DNA of 64,000 nt from Williamsia sp. 1138. Its GTDB lineage: Bacteria > Actinomycetota > Actinomycetes > Mycobacteriales > Mycobacteriaceae. The position numbers and the translations under genes are program-made. The DNA is taken from the NCBI RefSeq assembly GCF_002095435.2, contig NZ_MJEJ02000052.1, positions 62,001-126,000 on the forward strand, in the 5' to 3' direction. The notes under the pieces were generated by a model, which worked only from the letters and a program-made list of their open reading frames with translations, ran no database searches and had not been told where the DNA came from. Below are positions 26,523-43,285 of the stretch, piece by piece. Each line of letters begins with the position of its first letter. Positions within the stretch are counted from its first letter, which is position 1.

Positions 26523-26578
26523 AAGTCCTCCTGTCGTTTGGGGTTTGCACGTGGTGGTGTGAAAGGCCGGCCGCCGGG

Positions 26579-28060: not shown

Positions 28061-29515
28061 TCACAGGATGACGGTGATCGTCTTGGGTTCTGTGTAGGAG
28101 AGGATTCCTTCGTATCCGAGTTCGCGACCCACTCCGCTGGCTTTGACGCCGCCCCACGGCAGTTGGGGGGCGAGCGGCGACCAGCCGTTGACGCCGATCG
28201 CACCGGCGTCGATGCGTGCCGAGATGCCATGCGCGCGGCTCACATCGGTGGTCCAGATCGTCGCCGACAATCCGTACTGGTTGTCGTTGGCCAGTTCGAC
28301 GGCCTCGTCGTCGGAATCGAACGGGATCACGACGCCGACAGGGCCGAAGATCTCCTCACGGGACACCACCATGTCGTTGCGACCGGCCAGGACAGTCGGA
28401 TTGACGAAGAAGCCGGGGCCGTCCGGCGCGTTTCCGCCCGCAATGACATCGGCGCCTTCATCGGCGCCCTTGCGCAGGTAGCCGACCACACGGTCCCGCT
28501 GCCGTGCGTTGACCAGCGGCCCCATGGTGGTGGCAGGGTCGAACGGGTCGCCCACGATCTGGGCCTCGGCGGCGGCCTTGAGCCCCTCGAGTACGGCCTC
28601 ATACACTTTGCGGTGGGCAAGGATTCGCGTACCCGCAGCGCATACCTCTCCCTGGTTGAAGAACAGTCCCATTGCCGAACCCTGGATCGCGGCGTCGAGG
28701 TCGGCATCGTCGAAGATGACCTGTGGCGCCTTGCCTCCCAGTTCGAGGGCGGTGCGCTTGAAGTTGACGGCGGAGTTGCGCACGATACTGCGCCCGACCT
28801 CGGTGGAACCGGTGAAGGAGATCTTGTGGATTCCGGGGTGCAAGGCCAGTGCCTCACCCGCAACCTTTCCCACTCCGGTGAGCACGTTCACCGTTCCCGG
28901 TGGAAAGCCGGCTTCATCGACGAGTTCGGCCAGCCGAAGGATCGACAACGAGGCGTCTTCCGAAGGTTTGACGATCACCGCATTGCCACACGCGAGCGCG
29001 GGGGCCAGCTTCCAGCCGAGAATCATCAGCGGCGCATTCCACGGCACAATGGCGGCCACCACGCCGATCGGATCGCGACGTGTGTAGGCGTGGGTGGGCA
29101 CCGGCCCACCGAGGTAACCGTCGTTGGCGATCAATTCGCCATTGATCTTGTCGGCCCAGCCCGCGTAGTACCGGAGCGTGCCGATGAGATTGGGAATCAT
29201 CATGGCCGCGCCCATGCCGACAGGGCGGCCCATGTCGATCGATTCCAGCGCCGCCAGCTGCTCCAGGTCGCGCTCGACGAGATCGGCCAGACGGTGAAGC
29301 AGAGCGCCCCGACGTGACGGGGCCAGCGCACCCCAGTCGCCGCGGTACGCCGACGTCGCCGCGGTGACCGCGGCGTCGACGTCGGCAGACCCGGCGGCTG
29401 CGAGTTCGGCCAACGGTTGGCCGGTTGCGGGATTGAGGGTGGTGAAGGTTTCGCCGGCGTCGCGCCATCCACCGCCGATGAACAGGCCGGTGTGCAAGTT
29501 CGAGATGTCGATCAT
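28061..29515 (-). CDS. NAD(P)-dependent aldehyde dehydrogenase
   Basis: 484 residues, full length for the family. Catalytic Glu in LELGGKAPQVIFDDADLD and catalytic Cys in FFNQGEVCAAGTRI; the cofactor-binding region carries IVPWNAPLMILGWKLAPALACG and SFTGSTEVGR. It should oxidise the aldehyde made by the amine oxidase to a carboxylate, for example indole-3-acetaldehyde to indole-3-acetate if tryptamine is the substrate. First gene of the operon; AGGAG precedes ATG 29515. Confidence 0.9.
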   Translation of the reverse strand: MIDISNLHTGLFIGGGWRDAGETFTTLNPATGQPLAELAAAGSADVDAAVTAATSAYRGDWGALAPSRRGALLHRLADLVERDLEQLAALESIDMGRPVGMGAAMMIPNLIGTLRYYAGWADKINGELIANDGYLGGPVPTHAYTRRDPIGVVAAIVPWNAPLMILGWKLAPALACGNAVIVKPSEDASLSILRLAELVDEAGFPPGTVNVLTGVGKVAGEALALHPGIHKISFTGSTEVGRSIVRNSAVNFKRTALELGGKAPQVIFDDADLDAAIQGSAMGLFFNQGEVCAAGTRILAHRKVYEAVLEGLKAAAEAQIVGDPFDPATTMGPLVNARQRDRVVGYLRKGADEGADVIAGGNAPDGPGFFVNPTVLAGRNDMVVSREEIFGPVGVVIPFDSDDEAVELANDNQYGLSATIWTTDVSRAHGISARIDAGAIGVNGWSPLAPQLPWGGVKASGVGRELGYEGILSYTEPKTITVIL

Positions 29516-29688: not shown

Positions 29689-31230
29689 CTACTGTGCGCT
29701 GAGGGGGAGGGTGAACTCGAACACGGCCCCGCGTGGTGTGTTCTCCCGGGCGGTGAGCGTGCCGCCTTGGCGACTGATGATGCGATAACTCAATGCCAGG
29801 CCGATACCGTTGCCTGCGGCCTTGTCCGTGAACGCCCCGTAGAATACCTGGTCGGATGGCATGTGGGAGATACCTTTTCCGCAGTCGGTGACCGTGACGA
29901 CGCCGTATCCGCCGTCGTATCCGACCGAGACCGATACCGGCTGCCGGACATCAGGCTGCCCCGCCAATTCTTCGATGGCGTTGAAGCACAGATTCAGCAA
30001 CACCTGACCGGTGAGTACCTTCTCGCACACGACGGTGACGGGTTCGTCGGCAAGCACATACTCCACCGACACGCCGCTCTGCTGTGCGCGCAGATCGACG
30101 AAGTACGAACACTCTTCGACGATCTCGTTGAGGTCCGCGTGCTGCTGAGAATCCTCGAGTGTCGTCACGTACTCGCGCAAACTCCGCACGATGTGGTTGG
30201 CACGGTCCAATTGCCGGCGGGCGCTCTCCAGACCGCGCTGGATGTCGTCGTATCCGGCCGGCGGTTCGGTGGGTTGATCGGATGCCTGGGCCCGGTCTTG
30301 GGTTCCGGCGAGCCGGCTCTGCGTCCCGGCCAGGTAATTCGTGGCCGCCGCCAGCGGCTGGGCGAGTTCGTGAGCGATGGCCATTGCCATGTCACCCATC
30401 GCGTTGTACCGCGCCAGATAGTTCAGGTACTGCACATCGCGGCGATGCGCCTGCTCGGTCAGTACATGATCGGTGACGTCGTGACACAGCAGCAGTGACC
30501 CGCTGAGATCGTTTTCGATCTCGATGTGCTGGCAACTACCTGCATGCCAACGTACCCGGCCACTGGGCAGCTTGATCTCGTACCGCAGCCCTTCTGACCC
30601 GCCGTGTTCGGCAGTACGCTCGAGGGCCGCGACAACGTTGGAGCGAGACTGACCGGGCGTGCACAAATCCGTGAACCGGATGCCGGGCAGGCGATCGAGC
30701 GGTGAATCGAGCAGCGCGGCCGCCGCTTCGGTGGCGTATGTGATGCGGCCGGTCTCGTCGAGGACCAGAATCCCCTCACTCATGTTGTCCAGGAACGCCG
30801 ACAGCCGCGCCTCGGTGCGGTTGAGGTCTGCCTCGGTACGCAGGAGGTCCCGCCGGACCAGGGCCTCGCGTTCGATGTCGCGGAACTGCACCATGACCAC
30901 CTGGCGCGCGGCCAGCTCGACCCTGATCGCGATGGCCTCGGTGAGGATGACCCGGCCACTCTTGGCCCGATATGCCCACTCGGTCACCGCAACACCATTG
31001 TCCACCGCGTTCTGCAACCACTGCCGCCCCACGGACCTGCGGTATCGCTGCTCCTGGGCGCTCATCTGGTGCGCTTTGAGGGGGCGCAGCTCCTCGACGC
31101 TGAACTCCAGGAGATCTGCCGCAGCCTGATTTGCCCAGAGGATGTCTTTCGACGCGGCGTCATGAATCAGGACGCAGTACCGCAGTGCCTGAACCAGCTG
31201 CTCGTAGTCGTCGTCGGCGAGATAGGGCAC
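29689..31230 (-). CDS. FixL-like PAS sensor histidine kinase, candidate iac regulator
   Basis: 513 residues, no membrane segments. PAS domain 1 spans about residues 5-125 (DILWANQAAADLLEFSVEEL) and PAS 2 about 145-265 (GILVLDETGRITYATEAAAALL). The FixL-type His box is MAIAHELAQPLAAATNYLAG, followed by an ATPase domain with DCGKGIS and AGNGIGLALS. Cytosolic PAS kinases of this type sense small ligands or redox state. GTG 31230 is fixed by AAGGAGG six bases upstream. It is divergent from iacA, and the only FixJ-like regulator nearby lies beyond iacE, so the two probably form one system controlling the iac genes. Confidence 0.88.
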   Translation of the reverse strand: MPYLADDDYEQLVQALRYCVLIHDAASKDILWANQAAADLLEFSVEELRPLKAHQMSAQEQRYRRSVGRQWLQNAVDNGVAVTEWAYRAKSGRVILTEAIAIRVELAARQVVMVQFRDIEREALVRRDLLRTEADLNRTEARLSAFLDNMSEGILVLDETGRITYATEAAAALLDSPLDRLPGIRFTDLCTPGQSRSNVVAALERTAEHGGSEGLRYEIKLPSGRVRWHAGSCQHIEIENDLSGSLLLCHDVTDHVLTEQAHRRDVQYLNYLARYNAMGDMAMAIAHELAQPLAAATNYLAGTQSRLAGTQDRAQASDQPTEPPAGYDDIQRGLESARRQLDRANHIVRSLREYVTTLEDSQQHADLNEIVEECSYFVDLRAQQSGVSVEYVLADEPVTVVCEKVLTGQVLLNLCFNAIEELAGQPDVRQPVSVSVGYDGGYGVVTVTDCGKGISHMPSDQVFYGAFTDKAAGNGIGLALSYRIISRQGGTLTARENTPRGAVFEFTLPLSAQ

Positions 31231-31279
31231 GGACGCCTCCTTCTGACTGAAGACTGCACCGCCTGGGTGCGGGCCGCAA

Positions 31280-31295
31280 GTAAGGAATTGCTTAG
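31280..31295 (+). promoter_or_regulatory. Candidate response-regulator box in the iacA promoter
   Basis: GTAAGGAATTGCTTAG is an imperfect 6-4-6 palindrome, similar in layout to TodT/StyR boxes (ATAAAC-N4-GTTTAT) bound by FixJ-family regulators. A related sequence lies upstream of iacC (38091). It sits between the kinase and iacA, which are divergent. Confidence 0.45.
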
Positions 31296-31385
31296 TCGCG
31301 ACGCGGGAAGTCCCGATACCGGCGGCCCGCCCACAGTCCATAGCGTCATCGTCGAAGCTTTCGATGAAATGCGAATGGAGACGTG

Positions 31386-32555
31386 ATGACGACGGAGAGC
31401 ATGACCAGGGTGTCCGCCGAACCAGCGGGGCCGGCTCGCGCAGCGGCGTTCGAAGACGCCCTGGACGTGCTCCGGGAACGCCGAGACGAGTTCAGTGCCC
31501 AACGCTTCGTTCCACGCGACTTCGTTGCACTTCTCAAGCGGGCCGGCATGTACCGGGCATCGACGCCCGCCGCATTCGGTGGCGAGCCCATGGCCCCCTC
31601 TGACTTCATGAAGCTGGTCGAGCGGTTGTCTGCTGTCGACCCGGCCACCGGATGGGTTGCGAGTTTCGGCTCGTCGCTGGTCTATTTCGCGGCATTGCCG
31701 GTCGCATCGCAACAGCAGATCTACGCGGACGGCCCCGATGTCGCCTACGCCGGTGGTCTGTTTCCCATGCAGGAGGCCCAGCGTGTCGCCGGTGGATATT
31801 TGTGCACCGGCACTTGGCAATTCGCCAGTGGATGCCGCGGCGCCGACATCATCGGAATAGGGTTGGTCGGCGGGCCGGAGACGAACGGTAAGCCCCTCAC
31901 CGCGCTGGTGAATCCCGACGACGTCGAGATCGTCGACAACTGGGGTGTCGCCGGGATGAAGGCGACGGGATCACATGCCGTGCGTGCCGATCGGCTGTTC
32001 GTGCCGGAGGAGATGACGTTCGTCCGAGGCGGCGAGCCTCAGATCGACGAGCCGTTGAATCGGTACCCGGCGCTGTCGTATGCCGCTCAGGTGTTGGCGG
32101 TGGTGACCCTCGGTGCAGCTCGTGGCGCCCTCGACCACGTGATCGAGGTCGGCGCGGCGAAGGCATCGATCACCGGGGGCGCGGCCAAGGGCAACCGGCC
32201 TGCCTACAAGACGGGGCTGGCGCAGGCGGAGGCGGAGTTGCGTGCGGCGAGGGCGTTCTTCTATCAGACCACTGACGACGTGTGGGCCAAAGCCTTTGAC
32301 GGCGAGGCGATCACCACTGAAGACCAAGCGATACTCCGCCTCAGCGCCACGCATGCGGCCCACGCCGGTCGCTCCGTGGTGCTCAGGGCCTTCGATCTCG
32401 CCGGAACCGGCGCAATCTACGAGAATCACCCGTTGCAACGGTACGTCCAGGACGCTCTGGTGCCCGCCCAGCACGCGATGTTGCAGACCCATACCTACGA
32501 GGCGGTCGGAGCGCTGCTGCTCGGCCTCGACGCCGGCATCCCGAGCTTTCCCTGA
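31386..32555 (+). CDS. iacA: IacA-like flavin-dependent monooxygenase (acyl-CoA dehydrogenase fold)
   Basis: 389 residues with an acyl-CoA dehydrogenase/HsaA-type fold (YRASTPAAFGGEPMAP, DPATGWVASFGSSLVYFAAL, WQFASGCRGADIIGIG). In iac clusters IacA oxygenates the indole ring of indole-3-acetate using reduced flavin supplied by IacG, the first committed step, acting with the reductase IacE. ATG 31386 has GGAG five bases upstream; a GTG at 31383 is also open. The identification rests on this fold together with adjacent iacB and iacE and all the other iac genes within 10 kb. Confidence 0.85.
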   Translation: MTTESMTRVSAEPAGPARAAAFEDALDVLRERRDEFSAQRFVPRDFVALLKRAGMYRASTPAAFGGEPMAPSDFMKLVERLSAVDPATGWVASFGSSLVYFAALPVASQQQIYADGPDVAYAGGLFPMQEAQRVAGGYLCTGTWQFASGCRGADIIGIGLVGGPETNGKPLTALVNPDDVEIVDNWGVAGMKATGSHAVRADRLFVPEEMTFVRGGEPQIDEPLNRYPALSYAAQVLAVVTLGAARGALDHVIEVGAAKASITGGAAKGNRPAYKTGLAQAEAELRAARAFFYQTTDDVWAKAFDGEAITTEDQAILRLSATHAAHAGRSVVLRAFDLAGTGAIYENHPLQRYVQDALVPAQHAMLQTHTYEAVGALLLGLDAGIPSFP

Positions 32556-32597
32556 GCTGAAAAATCAAGACCTGCAACTACTCACGAGGAGAATCAT

Positions 32598-32960
32598 ATG
32601 GCCAACGAACCGCTGCGCACGCTGTTCTGCATCGGCAACAATCAGAACTTCTTCGACCTCCCCAAGGCTGACATCGGTCCCGTCTGGGTGGGGATCCAAG
32701 AGATGCTGTCGAACCTCAAGAACATGGACGGTGTCGACGTGATCGGGACGTTCGATGACGACGCCCACATGGTCGGGCCGTCCGACGGCTGGCCGTGGAC
32801 GTGCTACGTCCTCGCCGACGTCCGAGATCAGCCGACTGTGAAAGCGGCGTGCAATCTTCTGCGAACAACGATGATCGGTGAGTTCGCCCTGTGGAAGTAC
32901 TTCAAGATGGAAGCCCGCATGGGCCGCGAGCTCGCGATCCGCGACGACGTCAAACTCTGA
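32598..32960 (+). CDS. iacB: IacB-like small protein
   Basis: 120 residues, no signal or membrane segment, with NQNFFDLPKADIGPVW, FDDDAHMVGPSDGWPWTCYVLAD and YFKMEARMGRELAIR. It fits the small IacB proteins that follow iacA in indole-3-acetate clusters; their exact catalytic role is unsettled. AGGAG lies upstream of ATG 32598. The stop shares a base with the start of iacE (TGATG), so the two are translationally coupled. Confidence 0.82.
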   Translation: MANEPLRTLFCIGNNQNFFDLPKADIGPVWVGIQEMLSNLKNMDGVDVIGTFDDDAHMVGPSDGWPWTCYVLADVRDQPTVKAACNLLRTTMIGEFALWKYFKMEARMGRELAIRDDVKL

Positions 32961-33718
32961 TGGCGAACGCGCAGCAGAGTCAGGGCGTGGCAGTGGTCAC
33001 CGGTGCGGCAGGCGGGATGGGCAGCCATATCGCGCGGGCATTGCACGCCGACGGAGCGCACGTGCTGCTGGCCGATATCGCACTCGACGCCGCGCAGGAG
33101 CTGGCATCCGAGCTGTCGCCCGACGGATCAAGCGCGCGGGCGGTTGCGCTCGACGTGGCACACCGCGAGCCCTTTGTGCAGGCCCTGGACGTCTGCCGAC
33201 AGACCTGGGGAAGACCGACGATCCTGGTCAACAACGCGGCGGTGACCCAGGGCGCCGAGCTGATGGACATCGGTGAAGAGGATTTCACCCGGGTCCTCAA
33301 CACGAACGTGAACAGCATCTTCTTCGGTTGTCAGGTCTTCGGGGCGGCGATGGCCGACGCAGGCTACGGCCGCATCATCAACATGGCATCCCTTGCGGGC
33401 CAAAACGGCGGGACGGCCACCGGCGGCCACTACGCGTCCTCGAAGGGTGCGATCCTCACGGCGACAAAGGTCTTCGCTCGCGAGCTCGCTCCGCATGGGG
33501 TCACCGTCAACGCCATCGCCCCCGGCCCTCACGACCTCCCGGTCGTCCACGCGACCGTGCCGCCCGAGAAACTCGGTGCCGTGGTCGCGAACATTCCGGT
33601 GGGCACGCTCGGGGATCCGTCATTCATCGGGGATGTGGTGTCTCTACTGGCTTCGCCGAAGGCCGGGTTCGTCACCGGAGCCTGCTGGGACGTCAACGGC
33701 GGTCTGTACCTCCGCTGA
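32960..33718 (+). CDS. iacE: IacE-like short-chain dehydrogenase/reductase
   Basis: 252 residues. Classical SDR: cofactor motif VVTGAAGGMGSHIARAL, LVNNAAV, catalytic Ser in INMASLAGQNGG and Tyr-Lys in HYASSKGAIL. In iac pathways the SDR IacE acts with IacA on the oxidised indole acetate intermediate. ATG 32960 overlaps the iacB stop. Convergent with the FixJ-like regulator, 11 bp away. Confidence 0.85.
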   Translation: MANAQQSQGVAVVTGAAGGMGSHIARALHADGAHVLLADIALDAAQELASELSPDGSSARAVALDVAHREPFVQALDVCRQTWGRPTILVNNAAVTQGAELMDIGEEDFTRVLNTNVNSIFFGCQVFGAAMADAGYGRIINMASLAGQNGGTATGGHYASSKGAILTATKVFARELAPHGVTVNAIAPGPHDLPVVHATVPPEKLGAVVANIPVGTLGDPSFIGDVVSLLASPKAGFVTGACWDVNGGLYLR

Positions 33719-33729
33719 CCCCGCCGGCA

Positions 33730-34386
33730 TCAGCCCTCTGAATCGGCGACGGGCACCTCGGCATCAAACCGGAGGATGTCGCGGACCAGGGTGCTGATGC
33801 TGTCGGCGTCGGTCTTGCTCTTGATCCGCGCACGGTGAACGTCGACCGTCTTGACACTCATGCCGAGCCTGCGCGCGATGTTCTGGCTGGGCATGCCCTC
33901 GACCACCAGGGCGAGGATCTGTCGTTCCCGTGGAGTCAGCGACGAGACCTTGGACTGCACGGCCTGTTTGAGGCGATACTGACGGAATCGGATCTCTGCC
34001 TGCTCGACGCCGCTCTGTACCGCATCCAGAAGGCGCTGCGGTTCATACGGCTTCTCCAGGAAGTCGAGCGCGCCCGCCTGTAGCGCCGACACCGACATCC
34101 GGATGTCCCCGTGCGCGGATACGAAGATGATCCCGACAAACGGCGCAAATGTGTTGAGGCGCTCCTGCAACCGGGTGCCGCTGAGATGCGGCATTCGCAC
34201 ATCCAGGACCAGACACGCGGCATGGTCACCCTGATACATCTCGAGGAACTCGTCCGCGCTGTGGCAGATCCGTGGTCTGATACCGATGCTCTCGAGAAGC
34301 CACTCCACCGATTCGCAGACCTCGGGGTCGTCGTCGATGACGTACACCGTGGCCGGTGCACTGTCCTCACTCAGCTGTTCGGACAT
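33730..34386 (-). CDS. FixJ-like response regulator, candidate iac regulator
   Basis: 218 residues. Receiver domain with acidic pair YVIDDDPEVC, phospho-acceptor Asp in CLVLDVRMPHLSG and Lys in FLEKPYEPQRLL. LuxR-type HTH: LTPRERQILALVVEGMPSQNIARRLGMSVKTVDVHRARI. ATG 34386 has GAGGAG five bases upstream. It lies between iacE and iacH, on the same strand as the kinase at 29689 but separated from it by iacABE. FixJ-family regulators such as TodT and StyR activate aromatic degradation operons. Confidence 0.88.
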   Translation of the reverse strand: MSEQLSEDSAPATVYVIDDDPEVCESVEWLLESIGIRPRICHSADEFLEMYQGDHAACLVLDVRMPHLSGTRLQERLNTFAPFVGIIFVSAHGDIRMSVSALQAGALDFLEKPYEPQRLLDAVQSGVEQAEIRFRQYRLKQAVQSKVSSLTPRERQILALVVEGMPSQNIARRLGMSVKTVDVHRARIKSKTDADSISTLVRDILRFDAEVPVADSEG

Positions 34387-34454
34387 GTCTCCTCGCGTAT
34401 CGTGGCCCCCGATCACGAAGAGTCTACGCGCCGAGGGGAGTACACAGCCGGACT

Positions 34455-35783
34455 TCAGTTCACTCGCCCTACGACCGGGCCCTTGACCGGCGGCATCGCA
34501 CGCAGCGTGGATTCGAGTTTCTTCGCGACGGCGAACAGGGTGCTTTCACATCCGGGTTGTCCGATGAGCTGCAGACCCAGTGGTAGTCCATCGACATCTT
34601 CGGCGCCGGGGACCACCACGACGGGTGCGCCGAGCAATTGCCACGGCCTGCTCAGGACAGGTGATCCGGTAGCGGACAGGCCCGCGGGCGCCGGGCCCAG
34701 TGCGGCGGGGCCGACCACCACGGCCTCACCGGCAAGCAACGCCTCGAAGTGTGCACGCCGCTGATCCCGCCGCTCCAATGCCGCCGCTCTGTCGCCCGCC
34801 GACACCTCAGAACCTTCAAGCACCAGCTCACGCAACGGCGGACTCAACCGTTCCCCGTGCTCAGCGACGACATCCCGCAGTGTCTCTGCTGCCTCGTGAG
34901 CCATGACCGTGCGGTGGTCGTCGGCGAGGGCGCGAATGTCCTGGTCCCAGTGCAGGCCGGCGCTGCTGATGCCGCGATCGGCGAGGATGCCGGGGACCGC
35001 ATCGAGAAGCGCAACCATCGCCGGATCCAGGCTGTCCAGCTCACTACCCGACCACACCAACACCTTCGGTGTGATCGGGGCAGACTCGGCAGACCGGCCG
35101 GTGAACGCGTTGAAGACGTACTCGAGATCTGCGATGGTGCGAGTCAGCACACCCAATGAATCGAGTGACTCGCTGAGTCCACAGACGCCGTCCAGGCTCA
35201 CAGTTCCCTGGGCCAGAACCATTCCAGCGGTCCCGCAGAACGATGCCGGCCGGGTCAGAGAGCCTGCCGTCTGAGTCCCCAGGGCCACAGCAATGGTCCC
35301 CGCACCCACCGCTGCCGCCGACCCGCTGGATGAGCCTCCCGGAGTGCGGTCTGGTGCCTTGGGGTTTCGGGTCGGACCGGGGGAGAAGTAGCCGAATTCG
35401 GTGGTGACGGTCTTTCCTTGGACCACGGCCCCGAGATCACGAAAACGGGCGACGCATGCGGCGTCCCGGGTGGCCGGGGCCTGCTCGGTGACCGATGATC
35501 CTGCCCGGGTCGGCAGGCCCGCGACGTCGATCAGATCCTTGACGGCGAGCGAGATCCCCCGAAGCGGTGCATCGGTGACCTGGTGGTCCTGACTGCGCGC
35601 CTCGTCGATCACGCGAGGGTTCAACTCGACCCATGCCGACAACATGCTCTCCGCGGCGTCGATGTCACCACGGACTCCACGGGTGAGTCGTACCGCCGTG
35701 TCCGCTCCGGAGTTGATGGCGGCTACTTGGTCCGGAATCGGACGGTGCCACCCTGCGGATCCCGCGAGGTCTCTTTCGATCAT
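34455..35783 (-). CDS. iacH: IacH-like amidase
   Basis: About 442 residues, amidase-signature family. Catalytic Lys in ISLAVKDLIDVAGLPTRAGS, then the Gly/Ser-rich GGSSSGSAAAVGAG and the nucleophile region GTQTAGSLTRPASFCG. In iac clusters IacH is an amidase thought to act on an amide-containing late intermediate. I use ATG 35783 (MIERDLAGSAG); the open frame runs further to 35930 but would overlap the divergent iacG gene. No strong ribosome site is visible. Confidence 0.85.
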   Translation of the reverse strand: MIERDLAGSAGWHRPIPDQVAAINSGADTAVRLTRGVRGDIDAAESMLSAWVELNPRVIDEARSQDHQVTDAPLRGISLAVKDLIDVAGLPTRAGSSVTEQAPATRDAACVARFRDLGAVVQGKTVTTEFGYFSPGPTRNPKAPDRTPGGSSSGSAAAVGAGTIAVALGTQTAGSLTRPASFCGTAGMVLAQGTVSLDGVCGLSESLDSLGVLTRTIADLEYVFNAFTGRSAESAPITPKVLVWSGSELDSLDPAMVALLDAVPGILADRGISSAGLHWDQDIRALADDHRTVMAHEAAETLRDVVAEHGERLSPPLRELVLEGSEVSAGDRAAALERRDQRRAHFEALLAGEAVVVGPAALGPAPAGLSATGSPVLSRPWQLLGAPVVVVPGAEDVDGLPLGLQLIGQPGCESTLFAVAKKLESTLRAMPPVKGPVVGRVN

Positions 35784-35818
35784 GGATCGAGTGTGCGGCT
35801 TCTCGCTCGCGAACGACA

Positions 35819-35834
35819 GTAAAGATTTCTCTGC
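35819..35834. promoter_or_regulatory. Weak candidate regulator box between iacH and iacG
   Basis: GTAAAGATTTCTCTGC shares the GTAA(A/G)GA start of the boxes at 31280 and 38091 but is less palindromic. A perfect CGAAATAGTTTCG palindrome lies close by at about 35853-35865. Both fall in the 87-bp divergent gap between iacH and iacG, which must hold two promoters. Confidence 0.25.
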
Positions 35835-35870
35835 TACCGCCGTAGGACGATACGAAATAGTTTCGCAGAC

Positions 35871-37061
35871 ATGGCTATCACCGCAACTGCCCAGTTCGAA
35901 GCATCCGTATTTCGGGAAGTGATGGGCCACTATCCTACGGGCGTCGTGGTGGTCACCGGTCGCGACCGCGATGGCGACGTGTTGGCGATGGTCGTCGGCA
36001 CGTTCAATTCGGTGTCGCTGGACCCGCCGCTGGTGTCGTTCATGCCGATGAAGACGTCCCGGACCTTCGCGAAGATGTTGGAGTGTGACTCACTGTGCAT
36101 CAACATCCTCGGTGGTGAGCAAGAGGACGTCGTGCTGACCATCGCGCAGCGCTGGGAGAACAAGCTCGACGGTATCGAATGGTTCGCCTCACCCAGCGGT
36201 AATCCGGTGCTGGCGGACTCGGTCGCGTGGATCGACAGCACGATCTACAACACTGTGGAGGCCGGCGACCACTGGATCGTGCTCTGCGCGGTCACGGACC
36301 TGGCCGTCACGAACCCGGTCTCGCCCCTCATCTTCTTCCAAGGTGGCTACGGCAGCTTCGTCACCACCTCGTTGATGGCACGGATGGATCACGAGATACT
36401 CCCTGCCATCCATGCTGCGCATGGTGCTCGCAGCAGAATCGAGGAGTTGGCAAATGCGATCGGTTGTGAGGTAACAGTTTTCACCGCCGTCAGTTGCGAT
36501 GAGATGGCGACTGTGTTGTCCGCGACATCGCCCGGAGTCGCCAGGGAAGGCGGGCTGGCGTTGCGGGTGCCGATGGTGCCGCCGATCGGGGACTCGTATG
36601 TGTTCGCCCGCTCGAGTGACGAGCAGAAGCGGTGGATCGGCAGGCTTCGCGGCGCGTCGGATGAGGTAAAAGCAGTGCATCTCGAGCGTCTGGATTTCGT
36701 CCGAGAACACGGGTACCTGATCGCCTTCCTGCCACCGCAGACCGCCGATGCCTATGCTGAGATGCGTGACGCGGCTGAGCGTTACGGACGTGGTCGACTG
36801 ACTCCAGCCCAGGAACGAAGCATCCGGGAGTCGATCGGACGGTCTCCTGTCGACTATCGGGTCCAGCACGTCGAGGACTCGTCCACCTATGACGTGGGAT
36901 CGCTGGTGCTGCCCGTCCGAGACCCGGGTGGTGGCTACTCGTTGACGTTGCGGTTGGCGCAGCTGCCTCCGCAGGCATCGGGTGCGACGATCCGCGGATG
37001 GCTCCGCCAGGCGCGTGAGGTCGTCGCCGCCCTCGAGAACAACCGAGAGGTGCAGCCGTGA
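35871..37061 (+). CDS. iacG: IacG-like flavin reductase fused to an IclR-like effector domain
   Basis: 396 residues, more than twice the usual flavin reductase length. Residues 1-165 are the FMN-binding reductase (MGHYPTGVVVVTGRD, GTFNSVSLDPPLVSF, ILGGEQEDVVL), which should supply reduced flavin to IacA. Residues from about 175 onward match the IclR effector-binding pattern without any HTH: RIEELANAIGCEVTVFTAVS, a middle ASDEVKAVHLERLDFVREHG, and LVLPVRDPGGGYSLTLRL. Some two-component monooxygenase reductases, such as the HpaH (C1) reductase of Acinetobacter with its MarR-like C-terminal domain, are stimulated by substrate, and a similar control is plausible here. Its stop overlaps iacI by 4 bp. 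Confidence 0.82.
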   Translation: MAITATAQFEASVFREVMGHYPTGVVVVTGRDRDGDVLAMVVGTFNSVSLDPPLVSFMPMKTSRTFAKMLECDSLCINILGGEQEDVVLTIAQRWENKLDGIEWFASPSGNPVLADSVAWIDSTIYNTVEAGDHWIVLCAVTDLAVTNPVSPLIFFQGGYGSFVTTSLMARMDHEILPAIHAAHGARSRIEELANAIGCEVTVFTAVSCDEMATVLSATSPGVAREGGLALRVPMVPPIGDSYVFARSSDEQKRWIGRLRGASDEVKAVHLERLDFVREHGYLIAFLPPQTADAYAEMRDAAERYGRGRLTPAQERSIRESIGRSPVDYRVQHVEDSSTYDVGSLVLPVRDPGGGYSLTLRLAQLPPQASGATIRGWLRQAREVVAALENNREVQP

Positions 37062-37621
37062 CCGAGGCCATGGAAGACACCGTTGCAGGGTTGGTTGCCC
37101 GAATCGAGACGTTGGAGGCCGAGGCCGACATCCGTCGGCTGCAGGCCCGCTATATGTTCCTCTGCGACACACCGTGTCCCGAATTCGGCGTACGCGACGA
37201 TCAGCACCGGATCGACCTGATCGTCGGGCTCTACTCGGACGACGCGGTGTGGGAGGGCGTCGGCGAATACTACGACGGTCAGTTCGGGCGTGCGCAGGGT
37301 CATGCGGAGATCCGGGCGCACTTCGAGCGGTTCTGGGGGACCAAGCGTGATCCGGAGCTGTTGCTCAACGCCCACTATCTGACGTCTGAGCAGATCCACG
37401 TGGCGGGCTCCGGCGCCTCAGGGCAGTGGATTCACATGCAGCCCTGGCTCTTTGCGGACGGTAGTGGACTCTTGCGGTCGAGTCGCCTGAACAATGAGTT
37501 CCGAAAGGTCGACGGGGTCTGGAAGATCACCCGGACGAGAACCGAGAATGTGTTCATAGCCCCTCTGCCCACGCGTTTCGCAAGCGACCACCCGCGCGCA
37601 TCGGTACTCATGCGGCCGTAG
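37058..37621 (+). CDS. iacI: IacI-like NTF2-fold protein
   Basis: 187 residues with the SnoaL/NTF2-like fold (RLQARYMFLCDTPCPEF, DDAVWEGVGEYYDGQ, GHAEIRAHFERFWG, NEFRKVDGVWKITRTR). An IacI-type protein of this fold occurs in iac clusters; its catalytic role is not settled. It is co-translated with iacG (ATGA overlap). Confidence 0.8.
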   Translation: MTEAMEDTVAGLVARIETLEAEADIRRLQARYMFLCDTPCPEFGVRDDQHRIDLIVGLYSDDAVWEGVGEYYDGQFGRAQGHAEIRAHFERFWGTKRDPELLLNAHYLTSEQIHVAGSGASGQWIHMQPWLFADGSGLLRSSRLNNEFRKVDGVWKITRTRTENVFIAPLPTRFASDHPRASVLMRP

Positions 37622-37665
37622 TCCGGCGCGTGCAGTCAACAAGCCGACCCGCGCGCCACGGTCGG

Positions 37666-37980
37666 TCAGTCGTCGCTCCAAGCGGCATCTGCCTCCCAGT
37701 AGTCCATACCAGCGGCGCTGACCCGGTGCCGCCACGGCGACGTTCGGCGAAGTGTCGGCTCGATGCGTGCAGTGGCCTCGTCGGCCACCTCCGGGCCGTC
37801 ACCGGTGACGGTCCAGTGCACCCAGTTCACTTCGTTGCCCGCACTGTCGTGGGTGAACAGGTCCACATGCCGCCACCCGTAGCCGAAGGTGTCGGTGTAG
37901 CAGGTCAGTGTCATCCGCCGGTCATCGGTGACCGAGGCGCTTGAATCAGGGGTCATTTCGAATCCGTATGTCGGTGGCAT
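37666..37980 (-). CDS. Small hypothetical protein inside the iac region
   Basis: 104 residues (or 96 from ATG 37956), encoded on the strand opposite to the flanking iacI and iacC. It is rich in aromatic residues and Asp (YTDTFGYGWRHVDLFTHDSAG, NWVHWTVTGDGPE, DYWEADAAWSDD), with no signal, membrane segment or family that I recognise. The composition looks like a real soluble beta-rich protein rather than a shadow frame, and no overlapping gene competes for the space. No convincing ribosome site. Possibly an accessory iac protein. Confidence 0.5.
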   Translation of the reverse strand: MPPTYGFEMTPDSSASVTDDRRMTLTCYTDTFGYGWRHVDLFTHDSAGNEVNWVHWTVTGDGPEVADEATARIEPTLRRTSPWRHRVSAAGMDYWEADAAWSDD

Positions 37981-38277
37981 GATTTCGGAGCGGTGGTGTC
38001 GCGGACACGATGGGTCGGCGCGACGAGATCTGCGGTCACCGTCTCGCCATGATGTTACCGCTGCCGAGGCACCCAGGTTGTGTTCTACGGGTAAGGAAAT
38101 TACCTATCAGGCGGTGTACCTTCTCTGATTCTCAGCGGCCGCGCATATCCGTACCGTGAGGGTCGACAGTGCTGAACGAGCAAGTCCGGGCGCCACAGCC
38201 CTGGCGGCCGGGACCCGGTTTCGATTGTCCCGGTTGACCTTGCGATTCACATCACCTATGTATCTGGAGCCATCACG
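37981..38277. promoter_or_regulatory. iacC upstream region
   Basis: 297 bp between the small minus-strand gene and iacC. It must hold the promoter for iacCDF and possibly for the minus-strand gene. The only clear structure is the GGTAAGGAAATTACC palindrome described separately; GGAG lies about ten bases before the iacC ATG. Confidence 0.5.
38091..38107 (+). promoter_or_regulatory. Candidate response-regulator box upstream of iacC
   Basis: GGTAAGGAAATTACCTA contains a perfect GGTAA-N5-TTACC palindrome and shares GTAAGGAA with the box in the iacA promoter at 31280. It lies about 170 bp upstream of iacC. Similar placement at two iac promoters supports a shared regulator, probably the FixJ-like protein. 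Confidence 0.45.
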
Positions 38278-39576
38278 ATGACCGTCGACTTCAACGCAGA
38301 GAAGGTCTACGACCTCCCACCCTCCGACCTGGTGCGCCCCGATCGCGTTGCGGGGCGGATGTACACAGACCCTGACATCTTCGAACTCGAGATGTCGCGC
38401 ATCTTCGAGCGCGCCTGGGTCTGGGTTGCTCACGAGAGTGAGTTGCCGAAGGCCGGCAGTTTCAAGTCGACACACGTCGGGCACCAGCCGGTGATCGTCA
38501 CACGTGATCGCAAAGGCAACATCAACACTCTGCTGAACAGGTGCCGGCACCGTGGGGCGAGCGTGTGCGAGCAGCGCGCCGGTAACGCCAATGGGTTCAC
38601 GTGCCCGTACCACGCGTGGTCATACGGTCTCGACGGCACCTTGCGAGGGATCCCGTACCCCGATGGCTACGAGGATGTCATGGGCAAAGAGGGAATGGGC
38701 CTGAAGAAGGCGCGCACCGAATCATACGGCGGCATGATCTTTGCGACGTTCAACCCTGACGCTGAGCCACTCGACGAGTTCTTGGGCGACACCAAACTCT
38801 GGATCGATCGATTCTTCAAGCAGGGCGGCGGATATCCCGTCAAAGTGCTCGGCACGCACCGGTTCAAGTTCCGCGGCAACTGGAAGATCCAGCTGGAGAA
38901 CACCACTGACGGCTACCACTTCCCGATCGTGCACCGGTCCTGGATGGCGTCGGTGGACGCCGAGACCTCCGACATGATGAGTTTCATGACAGATCCGTCC
39001 GCGATCACCCATGACCTCGGTAACGGACACTCGGTGATGCAGATGGTCCCCGAACATTCAGACCTCGATGCCGACGACGGCAGCGAGCCGCTGCAGCCAC
39101 GCTTCGACGGTCTGGTCGCGGAACTGACCGAGGCCGGGTTGGATGAGCCCGCCGTCCGCAAGCTGGTACGCGCTGTCCATGGCACGGGGTTCAATCTCAA
39201 CCTGTTCCCGAACGTGTCGATGTCCATCTCGTTCTTCCGGGTACTGCGTCCGATCTCGGTCAACGAGACGTGGATCGAGCACGTTGCCCTGGGGTCGGAC
39301 GGACCGGAGGACATCGTCGGACCGGTCAATCGGGAACGGTTGCGGGCTCACGAACACTTCCAGGGCCCCTTCGGTTTCGGCACACCTGATGATGCCGAGG
39401 GCTGGGACCGCGTGCAGAGGGGCGCCGTGGGTGGACCTGAACTGCCCATCATGGTCAATCGTGGCCTGGGCCGTGAGGCTCGCTCGGCGCAGGGATGGCC
39501 CACTTCTCACGTCACAGATGAAACGGGTATGCGCGCTGCATACGGAAAATGGAAGGAGATGATGAGCGATGACTGA
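38278..39576 (+). CDS. iacC: IacC-like Rieske oxygenase large subunit
   Basis: 432 residues. Rieske [2Fe-2S] site CRHRGASVC followed by CPYHAW (C-x-H-x17-C-x2-H) at residues 87-110, and the mononuclear iron site DGYHFPIVH. This is the alpha subunit of a ring-hydroxylating dioxygenase. In the iac pathway IacC/IacD with reductase IacF acts on the oxidised indole intermediate on the way to catechol. GGAG lies about ten bases before ATG 38278. The 3' end overlaps iacD by 8 bp. Confidence 0.88.
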   Translation: MTVDFNAEKVYDLPPSDLVRPDRVAGRMYTDPDIFELEMSRIFERAWVWVAHESELPKAGSFKSTHVGHQPVIVTRDRKGNINTLLNRCRHRGASVCEQRAGNANGFTCPYHAWSYGLDGTLRGIPYPDGYEDVMGKEGMGLKKARTESYGGMIFATFNPDAEPLDEFLGDTKLWIDRFFKQGGGYPVKVLGTHRFKFRGNWKIQLENTTDGYHFPIVHRSWMASVDAETSDMMSFMTDPSAITHDLGNGHSVMQMVPEHSDLDADDGSEPLQPRFDGLVAELTEAGLDEPAVRKLVRAVHGTGFNLNLFPNVSMSISFFRVLRPISVNETWIEHVALGSDGPEDIVGPVNRERLRAHEHFQGPFGFGTPDDAEGWDRVQRGAVGGPELPIMVNRGLGREARSAQGWPTSHVTDETGMRAAYGKWKEMMSDD

Positions 39577-40153
39577 CACCGTCCAGGCTCGCAAACCGAA
39601 ACCAGGTGCATGGGCGGCGGAAGCCGTTGCCCGTGAGCTGCCGGTGTCGTTTGTACCCACCACCGACACCCGGGTGGTGCGAGCCATCGATCTCATCAGT
39701 CGTGAGGCCGAGTTGCTCGACAACAAAGACTACGAAGCATGGCAGCAGCTCTACTCCGAAGACGCAAAGTACATCATCCCGATCGATCCTGATTGCGAAG
39801 ACTTCGCCAACACCCTGAACATGGTGTACGACGACGCTCACATGCGTGGTCTGCGGGTCACCCGGATGACCGAGGGATATGCGATCGCCGCGGTCGACTC
39901 AGCAAAGACGCTCCGAACCATCGGACGGTTCGTCCCTGCCGACGTGGTCGATCGTGACCACGGTGCCACTGTCAAGATCCGCGCGGCACAGACGCTGATC
40001 GCCTACAAGCGCGGACACCACGATATCTGGGCTGCAAACGTCGACTACACGATTGATCTGGGCGCCACTGCTGCCGACGACCGCCTATCCCTCAAAGTCA
40101 TTCGACTCATCGACGGCCGGGACGAGGTACCTGCGGCGGGGTTCCTGCTGTGA
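39569..40153 (+). CDS. iacD: IacD-like Rieske oxygenase small subunit
   Basis: 194 residues with the ring-hydroxylating beta-subunit fold (LISREAELLDNKDYEAWQQL, YIIPIDPDCEDF, HMRGLRVTRMTEGYA, YTIDLG). It forms the oxygenase with IacC. ATG 39569 lies inside the end of iacC, and its stop overlaps the GTG of iacF by 4 bp, so all three genes are coupled. Confidence 0.87.
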   Translation: MTDTVQARKPKPGAWAAEAVARELPVSFVPTTDTRVVRAIDLISREAELLDNKDYEAWQQLYSEDAKYIIPIDPDCEDFANTLNMVYDDAHMRGLRVTRMTEGYAIAAVDSAKTLRTIGRFVPADVVDRDHGATVKIRAAQTLIAYKRGHHDIWAANVDYTIDLGATAADDRLSLKVIRLIDGRDEVPAAGFLL

Positions 40154-41103
40154 CGCTCCAGGTGCAGGTTGCCGAGGTCGTCTCCGAGACACCGGCTATA
40201 CGTACGCTAAGGCTGGTGCGTGAAGACGGCGCGCAGTTCACCCCCTATGATGCGGGTGCACACATCGACGTCGTCGGCCCGACCGGTGTGCTCCGGCAAT
40301 ACTCGCTGTGTAGTCCACCCCGCGACCCGTCGTCCCTCCTGATCGCGGTGAAACGCGAGGAGGACTCGCGTGGAGGTTCAGCTGCGCTGCACGAGGTGCA
40401 ACCGGGCGACCGTGTGACGATCTCGCCACCGCGTAACCTCCTGACCCTCGCCGAGGATGCCGACCGGCACGTGCTGATCGCAGGTGGTATCGGAGTGACC
40501 CCGCTGCTCAGCTTGGCGTATGAAATGAGCTCGCGAGCAGTCGACTTCGAACTCCACTACTTCGTGCGTAGTCGGGACCAGGCGGCCTTCATCGACCTGT
40601 TGGAGAACCGCGTGGAGTTCGCTGACCGGGTTCATCTCTATTTCGGTACTCCACGTAGCGATCTGGCCGGCATCCTCGAGGAGCTGGCGGGCCGGGCAGA
40701 CAAAGCCTCCCATGTCTACACCTGTGGGCCGGTCGGATTCATGGACCTGGTGGCGGCCACCTTCGCACCCGCGGTGGGTGCCGATCAGGTCCACAGCGAG
40801 CATTTTGTCGCAACGACCGTCGACACCAGTGCGGACTCCGCCTTCGAGATCGAACTCGACACCGGCGAGGAGTTCACTGTCCCGGCCGACCAGTCGATCC
40901 TGGAAGTCCTGGAAGAGAACGGGATCGAGGTCTTCAAGTCCTGCGAGGAAGGGATCTGCGGGTCGTGCATCTCGGGTGTGCTGGAAGGCACACCGGACCA
41001 CCGCGACAACTGCCTGTCGAACGCTGACAAAGCGGCCGGCAACCAGATGGCTCTATGCGTGAGCCGGGCACAGTCATCCAAGCTGGTCATCGAACTGTAC
41101 TGA
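40150..41103 (+). CDS. iacF: IacF-like oxygenase reductase (FMN, plant-type 2Fe-2S)
   Basis: 317 residues, VanB-type. Flavin-binding RQYSLCSPPRD near residue 50, nucleotide-binding LIAGGIGVTPLLSLA and TCGPVGFMDLV, then a C-terminal ferredoxin domain with CEEGICGSCISGV and a fourth Cys in RDNCLS. It passes electrons from NAD(P)H to the IacC/IacD Rieske oxygenase. GTG 40150 overlaps the iacD stop. It ends just before a good terminator. Confidence 0.88.
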   Translation: MTLQVQVAEVVSETPAIRTLRLVREDGAQFTPYDAGAHIDVVGPTGVLRQYSLCSPPRDPSSLLIAVKREEDSRGGSAALHEVQPGDRVTISPPRNLLTLAEDADRHVLIAGGIGVTPLLSLAYEMSSRAVDFELHYFVRSRDQAAFIDLLENRVEFADRVHLYFGTPRSDLAGILEELAGRADKASHVYTCGPVGFMDLVAATFAPAVGADQVHSEHFVATTVDTSADSAFEIELDTGEEFTVPADQSILEVLEENGIEVFKSCEEGICGSCISGVLEGTPDHRDNCLSNADKAAGNQMALCVSRAQSSKLVIELY

Positions 41104-41207: not shown

Positions 41208-41252
41208 GCGCCTCCCGGGCACCGAACGTGGTGTTCGATGCCCGGGAGGCGC
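41208..41252. terminator. Strong hairpin between convergent iacF and symporter genes
   Basis: Arms 41208-41227 and 41233-41252 are complementary over 20 bp with one mismatch, around GTGGT. The core is CTCCCGGGCA with its inverse. It lies 22 bp past the symporter stop (minus strand) and serves as its terminator and as a barrier to read-through from either side. Confidence 0.7.
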
Positions 41253-41274: not shown

Positions 41275-42822
41275 TCAGCTGCGAGTGGCAGCACCACCGA
41301 CTTTCTCCGCGGCCCGGCCGGTCAGCGCGGTGATGCGCATCGCGTCGAACGTCTCCTCGGCCTCGGCGGCGGCACCGCCGCGCGGCGATGTCATCAAGGC
41401 GACCACGATCGAGATGAGTAGGGCCACAGGGGCAGCGACGAGCGCGGGATTCGAGAAGCCCAGTGGCGCATCATCACCGTGTATGGCGGGGCTCGCGAGA
41501 ATGATCGCGAGGGACAGCGTGAGGCCGGCAACGATCCCGGCGATCACAGCCTGCGCGGTCATCCGGCGCCAGTACATGGTCAGCAACAGCGACGGCAGGT
41601 TGGCGCACGCGGCAATGGACATGCCGAGTGAGGCCAGGAACGCCACGTTCTGCTTTTCTGCCGCCAGGGCGATGACCACACCGATCGCACAGGTCAGCAC
41701 GGTCGCGACGCGGGCGGCGCGATGCTGTCCAACCTCCGATACCTTCCCCTTTCGAAACACCTGACCGTAGAGGTCGTGTGCGATAGCGCCGGACGTCGCG
41801 ATGACCAGGCCCGACAACGCGGCCAGGATGGTCACGAAGGCAACCGCCGCCACGAAGGCCAACAGCAAAGAGCCACCCAAGGATTCGGCAAGTTGGGCCA
41901 CCGCAAGGTTTCCGCCCTTGTTCTCCTGTGCGATCTCCTTCTGTCCGACGATGTACGCAGCTCCGTAACCCAGGACCGGGATCATGAGGTAGAAGCCGAA
42001 AAACACCCAGATGGCTGTGTATGCCGACGACCGGGCCTGCTTGGAGTCGGGAACCGTCAGGAAGCGGATCATGACGTGCGGCAACCCCAGCACACCGAAC
42101 ACCAGCCCGACGATCTGCGACAGCTGATCGAAGGAGGCAAGGTCCGAGGTGCGGTTCGGCCCGACGAAGGACTCACCGAACTCAGAGAGGGCAGTGGAGA
42201 ACGGCCCGAAGAGATTGAAGTCGTATTTGATGAGCACAAGGACGAAGAGGACCACCGCACAGACGATCAGCAGCACGGTCTTGATGATCTGGATCCAGCT
42301 GGTGGCCAGCATTCCACCGACCATTGTGTAGGTGGTGGTCAGCACGCCGATGATCAGTACCGCCACCCAGTATTTGAGGTCGAACAGGAGCGAGACGATC
42401 AGCGCGGCCCCGACGAGTTGGGCTACCAGGTATACAACGCTGATGACGACGGTGCTGGTGGCCATCGCGGTTCGCACCGGCGAGCCGGTGAAACGTGTTG
42501 CCAGCACATCGGCGAGAGTGAACCGTCCCAGGTTACGAAGTGGTTCGGCGACGATCAGCATGGCGAGCAGGAACGCAATGGGTACGAAGACCGCAAGGTA
42601 GAAGCCGTTGAACCCGGTCAGGGCGATGGCGCCGGTGACACCGAGAAACGATGCCGCCGAGATGAAGTCGCCCGCGATCGCGACGCCGTTCTGACGGCCG
42701 GTCAGTCGCCCTCCGGCAACGTAGTGGTCGGCGGCCGTCTTGTTTTTCTTGGCCGCCCACCACGTGATGAAGAGCGTGACCACGACAAGCGATGCGAACA
42801 GGATTGCTGAGGAAAGAGTCAT
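41275..42822 (-). CDS. Sodium:solute symporter (ActP/MctC/PaaL type)
   Basis: 515 residues with about thirteen membrane helices. SSS-family features: GGRLTGRQNGVAIAGDFISAASFLG near residue 40, YTMVGGMLATSWIQIIKT and a carboxylate-transporter-like C-terminal half. Together with its DUF485 partner this matches acetate, monocarboxylate or phenylacetate permeases. Because it directly follows the iac genes, import of indole-3-acetate is plausible but not shown; short monocarboxylates are the main alternative. The start overlaps the DUF485 stop by 4 bp. Confidence 0.85.
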   Translation of the reverse strand: MTLSSAILFASLVVVTLFITWWAAKKNKTAADHYVAGGRLTGRQNGVAIAGDFISAASFLGVTGAIALTGFNGFYLAVFVPIAFLLAMLIVAEPLRNLGRFTLADVLATRFTGSPVRTAMATSTVVISVVYLVAQLVGAALIVSLLFDLKYWVAVLIIGVLTTTYTMVGGMLATSWIQIIKTVLLIVCAVVLFVLVLIKYDFNLFGPFSTALSEFGESFVGPNRTSDLASFDQLSQIVGLVFGVLGLPHVMIRFLTVPDSKQARSSAYTAIWVFFGFYLMIPVLGYGAAYIVGQKEIAQENKGGNLAVAQLAESLGGSLLLAFVAAVAFVTILAALSGLVIATSGAIAHDLYGQVFRKGKVSEVGQHRAARVATVLTCAIGVVIALAAEKQNVAFLASLGMSIAACANLPSLLLTMYWRRMTAQAVIAGIVAGLTLSLAIILASPAIHGDDAPLGFSNPALVAAPVALLISIVVALMTSPRGGAAAEAEETFDAMRITALTGRAAEKVGGAATRS

Positions 42823-43115
42823 CGGTCGCGTCCCCCTGTGACCACAGCGTCCAGCCGACGGTCGAAGTCACTGGCCCAAGTCGAATACCAGCGCGCACCC
42901 GCGATGGCGACGACAAACTGGGCGAAGGCGTACACCCACGCCACGGTGACGCCCTGGAAGAGGACTCCGTCGAGCAATGAGGTGAAGCCACCGAGGATCG
43001 GTAACGGTAAAAAGAAGGCGAGCACGGCGGCGCTCATGCCGAGCGTCAGTCTCGTTCGCTCGCGGCTGAGAGCATAGAGAGCAGTGACGTCCGGTCCTTC
43101 GTTGAGTGCGGTCAT
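42819..43115 (-). CDS. DUF485 membrane protein
   Basis: 98 residues from ATG 43115 (MTALNEGPDVTALYAL); the longer open frame upstream looks non-coding. Two membrane helices (TLGMSAAVLAFFLPLPIL and VTVAWVYAFAQFVVAIAG) with a short C-terminal RWYSTWASDFD, the DUF485/YjcH pattern. Such proteins are nearly always encoded just before ActP-type symporters and are thought to assist them. Confidence 0.85.
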   Translation of the reverse strand: MTALNEGPDVTALYALSRERTRLTLGMSAAVLAFFLPLPILGGFTSLLDGVLFQGVTVAWVYAFAQFVVAIAGARWYSTWASDFDRRLDAVVTGGRDR

Positions 43116-43285
43116 CGGCGTACCCCCGTTTCGGGTACTTGTGGTCTCGTGGCGTCGGCTGCAGGCATGGACTACTCCAAAGGTTGGTACGCAGGGCGTA
43201 CAGGCAAATCGGGCTGCGTACACCATCGTTGAACCTCTGGATCGGCAGGACAATCGGGAATTCCCTTACCGACGCAGTTCTGACT

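Follow-up and report, generated by a model that had tools for sequence, protein, structure and literature searches.

Williamsia sp. 1138, an actinobacterium, carries homologs of the nine iac genes, which in other bacteria degrade the auxin indole-3-acetate, on a 64,000-nucleotide stretch of DNA (hereafter, the window; positions 62001–126000 of contig NZ_MJEJ02000052.1, contig C26 of 54 in a 6.08 Mb genome). Open reading frames (ORFs) were listed for 27–46 kb of the window and then scanned against Pfam and NCBIfam. The nine iac homologs, each an uninterrupted ORF, span 31386–41103. A sequence-only reading of this DNA had proposed nine counterparts within 10 kb, split into four units (ABE, H, GI, and CDF) with regulators and a small gene inserted, and the ORF coordinates bear out each point: a response regulator (RR) gene and the small gene x104 lie between units, and a histidine kinase (HK) gene diverges from iacA. 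Overlaps are short: the iacB stop codon and the iacE ATG share 1 base, and the overlap is 4 bases for G/I, 8 for C/D, and 4 for D/F. The cluster is present in four of the eight congeners searched, in an identical gene order apart from a displaced iacI in one of them, and its proteins are 60–89% identical across those four. Because half of the congeners carry the same genes in the same order, the layout is not a product of chance.

A Complete iac-Type Gene Set

Gene-by-gene alignment with iac clusters upholds the earlier identification of the set. The reference proteins came from Klebsiella, Acinetobacter, Novosphingobium, and Caballeronia plasmid relatives, with the clusters of Pseudomonas putida 1290 and Caballeronia glathei known by description. 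Specifically, IacA is 81 and 66% identical to two Rhodococcus homologs, 51% to that of Streptomyces, and 47, 45, 43, and 40% to those of Caballeronia, Novosphingobium, Acinetobacter, and Klebsiella, versus only 29–31% for the three IacA-like matches elsewhere in the Williamsia genome; the closest homologs lie in iac clusters rather than in another pathway. IacC is 83 and 68% identical to two Rhodococcus proteins, 68% to a Streptomyces protein, and 57, 55, and 57% to those of Klebsiella, Acinetobacter, and Novosphingobium. IacB matches no Pfam or NCBIfam family and is recognized by alignment, with 55–58% identity to its counterparts in three proteobacterial clusters and up to 81% among six IacB proteins. 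Against the same proteobacterial loci, IacE is 49–52%, IacD 35–39%, and IacF 38–39% identical, and IacI is 74% identical to its Rhodococcus homolog and 31 and 35% to those of Klebsiella and Acinetobacter. The Klebsiella and Acinetobacter regions are ordered H-A-B-I-C-D-E-F-G, and in Klebsiella the annotation of one gene reads “IacB protein.” Among plasmid records, 54 match IacC, 30 of them at 54–83% identity and a second group of 24 at 38% or less.

Relatives were gathered as 80 named actinobacterial loci, the best 80 IacC matches of 530 confirmed relatives. Many of these loci are cut by contig ends, and because they were chosen as the best IacC matches, the set favors relatives of the window. 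At least one homolog is found for IacA in 73 of them, IacB in 72, IacD in 80, IacE in 71, IacF in 75, IacH in 72, IacI in 73, x104 in 76, HK in 70, and RR in 68, and iacA–F plus iacH are found together in 63. With an iacA-type monooxygenase, adjacent iacC and iacD, iacB, E, F, G, H, and I, and catechol ortho-cleavage genes in the genome, the window, by alignment, holds a complete iac-type gene set.

The iac clusters of P. putida 1290, C. glathei, and Paraburkholderia (iacABCDEFGHI) share with the window the nine genes, the adjacent iacC–iacD, and catechol genes in the genome. Unlike these clusters, the window has its own gene order, a long IacG with an IclR-type domain, x104, and an adjoining amine oxidase and aldehyde dehydrogenase. 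Regulation is by a MarR repressor, IacR, in clusters of the P. putida, Enterobacter, and Acinetobacter type and would be by a two-component system in the window, as in some Pseudomonas and in Paraburkholderia phytofirmans, where such a system replaces MarR (PMC11630574). The iad clusters of Variovorax and Achromobacter also comprise auxin degradation genes with a Rieske oxygenase; as described, they lack iacA, end at anthranilate, and have C/D homologs of weak similarity (PMC9613470). Judged by that description, an iad-type cluster is rejected: unlike iad, the window has iacA and a catechol-type set, and its IacC is close to the iac type.

The sequence-only reading called iac best known in Proteobacteria, which needs qualifying because actinobacterial iac is already in print: iac- and iad-like loci are reported in five phyla, including Actinobacteria (PMC9613470), and rhizoSMASH predicts an iac cluster in Nocardiaceae (PMC12462448). 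Thus, the presence of iac in an actinobacterium is not new by itself. A search of Rhodococcus strains PBTS1, PBTS2, and D188 for iac homologs is reported to have found none, yet PBTS2 grows on auxin (PMC7002392). Actinobacterial Iac profiles, together with x104, provide markers for rechecking such genomes.

Table 1. Genes of the iac cluster and its flanks, with positions in the window
Feature	Position	Strand	Basis
TetR regulator adjoining the amine oxidase, often accompanying it	24537..25175	+	
Flavin amine oxidase	ORF 25164..26807, homology from about residue 102	-	
Amino-acid-permease-type transporter (APC)	26579..28033	-	
Aldehyde dehydrogenase	28061..29515	-	best NCBIfam model phenylacetaldehyde dehydrogenase StyD, 717.6 bits (cut-off 800)
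PAS-domain sensor HK, divergent from iacA; presumed RR partner	29689..31341	-	
iacA homolog, acyl-CoA-dehydrogenase-like flavin monooxygenase, oxygenase part of a two-component enzyme	31386..32555	+	family scan, alignment, tree
iacB homolog	32598..32960	+	55–81% identity to six other IacB
iacE homolog, short-chain dehydrogenase (SDR)	32960..33718 (ORF listed from 32891)	+	family scan, alignment
RR with LuxR-type helix-turn-helix	33730..34416	-	nearest NCBIfam models FixJ, TtrR, below cut-off
iacH homolog, amidase	ORF 34455..35930, likely start near 35783	-	family scan, alignment
iacG homolog, flavin reductase (residues 18–162) with predicted IclR-type effector-binding domain (modelled residues 171–396)	35871..37061	+	
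iacI homolog, SnoaL-like	37058..37621	+	family scan, alignment
x104, small conserved 104-residue protein co-occurring with actinobacterial IacC	37666..37980	-	
iacC homolog, Rieske oxygenase alpha subunit	38278..39576	+	family scan, alignment, tree
iacD homolog, oxygenase beta subunit	39569..40153	+	
iacF homolog, ferredoxin reductase	40150..41103	+	
Sodium/solute symporter (SSS), acetate/monocarboxylate type	41275..42822	-	
DUF485 protein, presumed symporter partner	42819..43253	-	

A Mosaic of Two Actinobacterial Lineages

Two main cluster layouts exist among actinobacteria, alongside further variants. Layout M (HK-ABCDEF-RR-x104-H-G-I) occurs in Gordonia, Mycolicibacterium, Corynebacterium, Tsukamurella, and some Rhodococcus, and layout S (H-x104-HK-ABCDEF) occurs in Nocardia, Amycolatopsis, Pseudonocardia, Saccharopolyspora, and others. 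In quick trees, as all trees here are, the window’s IacA falls inside the M clade (27 rows, support 100; tree of 64 rows) and its IacC inside the S clade (39 rows, support 98; tree of 69 rows). The approximately unbiased (AU) test rejects forcing the genus IacA with S (p 0.0026) and forcing the genus IacC with M (p 0.0057), the tested groupings having been chosen after the cluster layouts and trees were seen. The remaining proteins divide similarly. IacB, RR, IacE, and IacH lie in starred tree sets with M, IacD and x104 lie in starred sets with S, and the nearest rows to IacF outside the genus are S; in the IacG and IacI trees, no starred set holds the window’s protein. The IacE tree lacks L103 and L039, with L003 as a fragment, and the IacH tree lacks L103, these proteins being cut at an upstream stop, which possibly affects other rows as well. 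The HK tree lacks all four congeners and was not used.

By these trees, the window’s cluster is a mosaic of two actinobacterial iac lineages, with A, B, E, H, and RR from one and C, D, F, and x104 from the other. The term “rearranged” in the sequence-only reading hides this mosaic, whose layout recurs in the genus. The clusters of Gordonia sp. OPL2 (L080), Nocardia sienata (L030), and the Rhodococcus sp. YL-1 plasmid pYLL1 (L003) contain the same gene set, including x104, HK, and RR, and the long IacG is common to the window, L080, and L003. Unlike those clusters, the window joins M-lineage A, B, E, RR, and H to S-lineage x104, C, D, and F. The present order would have arisen by replacement, one lineage losing its native block and receiving in its place the x104-CDF block of the other. 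Four Streptomyces loci (L023–L026) have I, x104, and C-D-F, while A, B, E, and H were not found in the DNA examined; a possible donor block would have this shape. Separately, an apparent exchange of C and D, though not of F, is seen in pYLL1, Mycobacterium kyogaense, and Gordonia asplenii.

A Tightly Linked Tenth Gene

x104 is a tightly linked tenth gene of actinobacterial iac clusters. In tblastn searches, relatives of x104 appear in 81 of 92 loci and in 76 of the 80 named loci, a frequency that matches the iac genes apart from C and D. Of the 11 tblastn-negative loci, some proteobacterial and some actinobacterial, none gives a match at E 10 or below when its six-frame translation is searched with an x104 profile. 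Among 301 genomes of the family, x104 is present in 37, and these are the same 37 genomes, from nine genera, that have IacC at 776 bits or more. There are 40 copies of each gene, three genomes having two of each, and all 40 pairs share a contig at distances of 310–5,625 bp. All other IacC-like matches in these genomes score 378 bits or less; 40 genomes passed the IacC threshold of E 1e-100, of which G493, G529, and G573 (343–371 bits only, without x104) were not counted as iac. Fisher’s test of x104 with IacC gives 2.7e-48, relatedness being ignored. The 301-genome set overlaps the 80 loci (G008 is the record of L021), and the search scores only the top first-look candidates (18 for x104), so that distant relatives could be missed.

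Plasmids show the same association. Three of 72,556 plasmid records yield x104 by tblastn, and all three are actinobacterial. IacC at 54% identity or more occurs in 30 records, namely these three and 27 proteobacterial ones, in which no x104 turned up; the search covered plasmids and not chromosomes. A phylum-wide sample of 296 genomes says little about co-occurrence because x104 is found there only in the window’s genome, and the eight other genomes with an IacC-like match reach at most 374 bits. Pairwise distances of x104 correlate with those of IacC (0.76), IacF (0.75), and IacA (0.72; 1,485/1,770 pairs), and no single partner stands out.

The protein itself is conserved. An alignment of 48 of the 73 distinct sequences of suitable length has 30 invariant columns, including six tryptophans and two histidines, and the AlphaFold model (predicted local distance difference test, pLDDT, 92.2) has six strands and one helix. 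No Pfam family matches x104 (48 members, best chance match E 0.11), nor does any NCBIfam model; PHROGs and PADLOC were not searched. Foldseek finds no PDB chain at E 0.001 (best E 0.14), and the re-aligned chains all have Z below 5 (VIA best 4.9), so the rows that VIA aligned, viral glycoprotein domains and KCTD, are taken as chance. The idea that x104 duplicates IacB or IacI was rejected, since each is already present next to it and no family connects it to them. No description of x104 was found in the literature within reach of our search, which excluded most subscription papers. Its tight linkage marks x104 as a concrete candidate for some of the missing steps that convert 3-hydroxy-2-oxindole-3-acetate (DOAA) to catechol.

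We note that L004 and L108 (plasmid pUSK13_1) have transposase genes after the iac genes, and an amidase-x104-RR part lies 36 kb off; near that part are an integrase gene and short genes for an SDR and an oxygenase beta subunit.

A Flavin Reductase with a Sensor-Like Domain

IacG of the window has 396 residues, compared with 164–171 in the proteobacterial reductases examined, and a Pfam scan assigns its N-terminal part to flavin reductase. The C-terminal part, modelled alone from 21 sequences (pLDDT 89.5), matches 58 PDB chains at E ≤0.001 (best E 5e-7), and the 50 matches listed are all of the IclR family. Among those listed are KdgR, PobR, PcaR, BlcR, and HmgR, which we take to be members of that family. 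Forms of at least 380 residues occur in 20 of the 80 named loci, one of which, L062, is just 34% identical. On the strength of the model, IacG looks like a flavin reductase fused to a sensor-like IclR-type domain, and a literature search found no report of a flavin reductase with an IclR domain.

A parallel exists in HpaC, the C1 reductase of Acinetobacter baumannii 4-hydroxyphenylacetate 3-hydroxylase. HpaC likewise carries a ligand-binding domain C-terminal to its flavin reductase, and its oxygenase partner is a relative of IacA. The C-terminal domain is MarR-type in HpaC, where it inhibits the flavin reductase until 4-hydroxyphenylacetate binds (PMC10816480), and IclR-type in the window’s IacG. 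Because of this parallel, IacG may be gated by auxin or by an early product. If so, the IclR-type IacG would represent another way, besides that of HpaC, of gating flavin supply by substrate, and it might also serve as an auxin sensor.

Catechol Ring Cleavage

The sequence-only reading found no ring-cleavage gene in the window. This holds for intradiol enzymes, as no PF00775 match lies there; extradiol enzymes were not searched for. That reading had also proposed looking in the rest of the genome, and catA and catB were found about 28 kb beyond the window. Specifically, a catechol 1,2-dioxygenase gene (PF00775) lies 27.8 kb past the window end on the same contig, scoring 482.6 bits against the actinobacterial catA equivalog cut-off of 404.4, and a weak second PF00775 match lies on another contig. 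After catA comes catB (muconate cycloisomerase; 565.4 bits, cut-off 334.95), followed within 8 kb by genes for a 3-oxoacid CoA-transferase subunit, a PcaR/PcaU-family regulator, and a thiolase. Just upstream of catA (L106 7430–8380) is an AraC-type regulator, nearest, below cut-off, to AndR of anthranilate dioxygenase.

Neighboring Genes

An amine oxidase accompanies iac in part of the family. Matches at 737 bits or more occur in 13 of the 301 genomes, all among the 37 with iac, versus none of the 264 without (Fisher’s test 1.7e-13, relatedness again ignored); in the window’s genus, the gene is present in five of five genomes with iac and none of four without. Three of the 13 matches have an in-frame stop. 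In eight, the gene lies within about 13 kb of iacC on the same contig, and because the other five lie >200 kb away or on another contig, the link to iac is more than positional. The amine oxidase may feed the iac pathway. Tryptamine is a natural guess for its substrate because oxidation of tryptamine gives indole-3-acetaldehyde; a literature search did not reveal what the closest amine oxidases of solved structure (8een and kin) act on.

On the other flank, the symporter and DUF485 pair recurs in 16 of 91 other loci, e.g., in Nocardia, Prauserella, Rhodococcus jostii, and plasmid pYLL1, and the symporter is a candidate auxin importer. Separating iacF from the symporter gene is a likely terminator, an inverted repeat of 20 pairs around a 5-nucleotide loop (41208–41252). 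Terminator-like sites number 13 in the region, versus 6.1 expected, and no promoter-like site is present. Within the cluster of pYLL1 (L003 7157–10139) are genes for a GMC oxidoreductase and an aldehyde dehydrogenase, which could feed the pathway from indole-3-ethanol.

A Probable Working Pathway and Its Alternatives

The best explanation of these genes, and in our judgment quite probably the correct one, is a working actinobacterial iac pathway. The roles of IacA, IacE, and IacC would carry over from proteobacterial experiments, in which the IacA product is 2-oxindole-3-acetate and IacE makes DOAA without IacB (PMC7225977). Indole-3-acetate would enter, perhaps via the SSS symporter, and IacA, with reduced flavin from IacG, would oxidize it to 2-oxindole-3-acetate, from which IacE would form DOAA. 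Binding of auxin or an early product by the IclR-type domain of IacG would switch on flavin reduction, as 4-hydroxyphenylacetate does through the MarR domain of HpaC. IacC/D/F together with IacB, H, I, and possibly x104 would convert DOAA to catechol, a chemistry described as not determined even in model strains (PMC9613470); in Escherichia coli, IacB plus IacI gave no DOAA conversion (PMC7225977). CatA and CatB, encoded on the same contig, would then open and process the ring. HK and RR would occupy the place of the P. putida MarR repressor. Finally, the amine oxidase, permease, and aldehyde dehydrogenase may turn tryptamine, via indole-3-acetaldehyde, into auxin.

Several observations weigh against this picture or parts of it. 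IacG is only 28–31% and IacH 28–34% identical to the proteobacterial proteins, and G, H, and I as a group about 28–36%. The cluster genes, to which the scan for a MarR regulator was confined, include none; because two-component systems are reported in P. phytofirmans and some Pseudomonas, a MarR repressor is not a strict mark of membership. The IclR likeness of IacG is one of fold, with TM-scores mostly 0.5–0.6; Pfam IclR_C reaches E 0.019 in one of the 21 members, and no Pfam family is listed for the window’s domain. x104 was not found near IacC in four of the 80 loci (L072, L073, L087, and L082, the last of which is cut short by a contig end). An amine oxidase at 514–555 bits is present in two genomes that lack iac, and phenethylamine or tyramine is as possible a substrate as tryptamine. 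Lastly, because Caballeronia IacA and IacE accept several other indole derivatives (PMC7225977), auxin may not be the sole substrate.

This last point could be carried further: the main substrate of the enzymes could be a different indole or aryl-acetic compound, such as indole-3-propionate, indole-3-butyrate, or amines entering through the amine oxidase, with auxin as a side substrate. The breadth of the Caballeronia enzymes and the nearness of the adjoining aldehyde dehydrogenase to phenylacetaldehyde dehydrogenase fit this proposal, while the joint presence of A–F and H in 63 of the 80 loci and the 55–58% identity of IacC and IacB to their proteobacterial counterparts argue against it, and we consider it unlikely. 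That the blocks stem from two lineages might also suggest a broken, non-functional mosaic. The ORFs are all intact, however, and the identity and gene order seen in the four congeners speak for conservation; a decayed cluster is rejected, and a non-functional mosaic is extremely improbable. A working pathway remains the preferred reading.

Within that pathway, the place of x104 allows more than one account. We tentatively propose, while thinking it rather doubtful, a biochemically distinct actinobacterial form of iac in which x104 is a new enzyme or obligatory partner in the DOAA-to-catechol steps and IacG is an auxin-gated reductase, its IclR domain recruited independently of HpaC. A slightly better prospect, yet one still short of even chances, is that x104 is a regulatory or signaling accessory of the two-component system, outside the catabolic steps. 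It lies 600 bp or less from iacH, on the iacH strand, in 62 of 76 loci, often adjoining RR; on two of the three plasmids, x104 is apart from iacA and near an RR gene (between amidase and RR genes, 36 kb off, on pUSK13_1; beside RR, 12 kb off, on the Streptomyces NBC_00564 plasmid), its other neighbor on these two being an amidase or an NTF2/SnoaL-type gene; and its fold search gave no enzyme-like match. On the other side, x104 in the window’s genus goes by phylogeny with IacC/D and not with RR, and RR was not found in nine of 76 x104 loci, several of them cut by contig ends. Mere hitchhiking in actinobacterial iac clusters would suit a short protein without a recognized fold, but it is highly unlikely given that x104 shares distribution and copy number with strong IacC in 37 genomes, nine genera, and several cluster layouts, and given its invariant columns.

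Names of Database Records

Two records have questionable names. L021 (NZ_JNYV01000008.1) bears the title Kitasatospora arboriphila NRRL B-24581, yet 14,994 bp of it match without a difference those of G008, a genome placed in the window’s genus, with 64% G+C; the name of L021 is probably wrong. L071 (NZ_JAPWIJ010000004.1) is titled Rhodococcus ruber IEGM 1391, and this name may be wrong as well because the locus has 62.3% G+C, R. ruber has a G+C content near 70%, and the iac genes of L071 group with those of Rhodococcus sp. KRD162.

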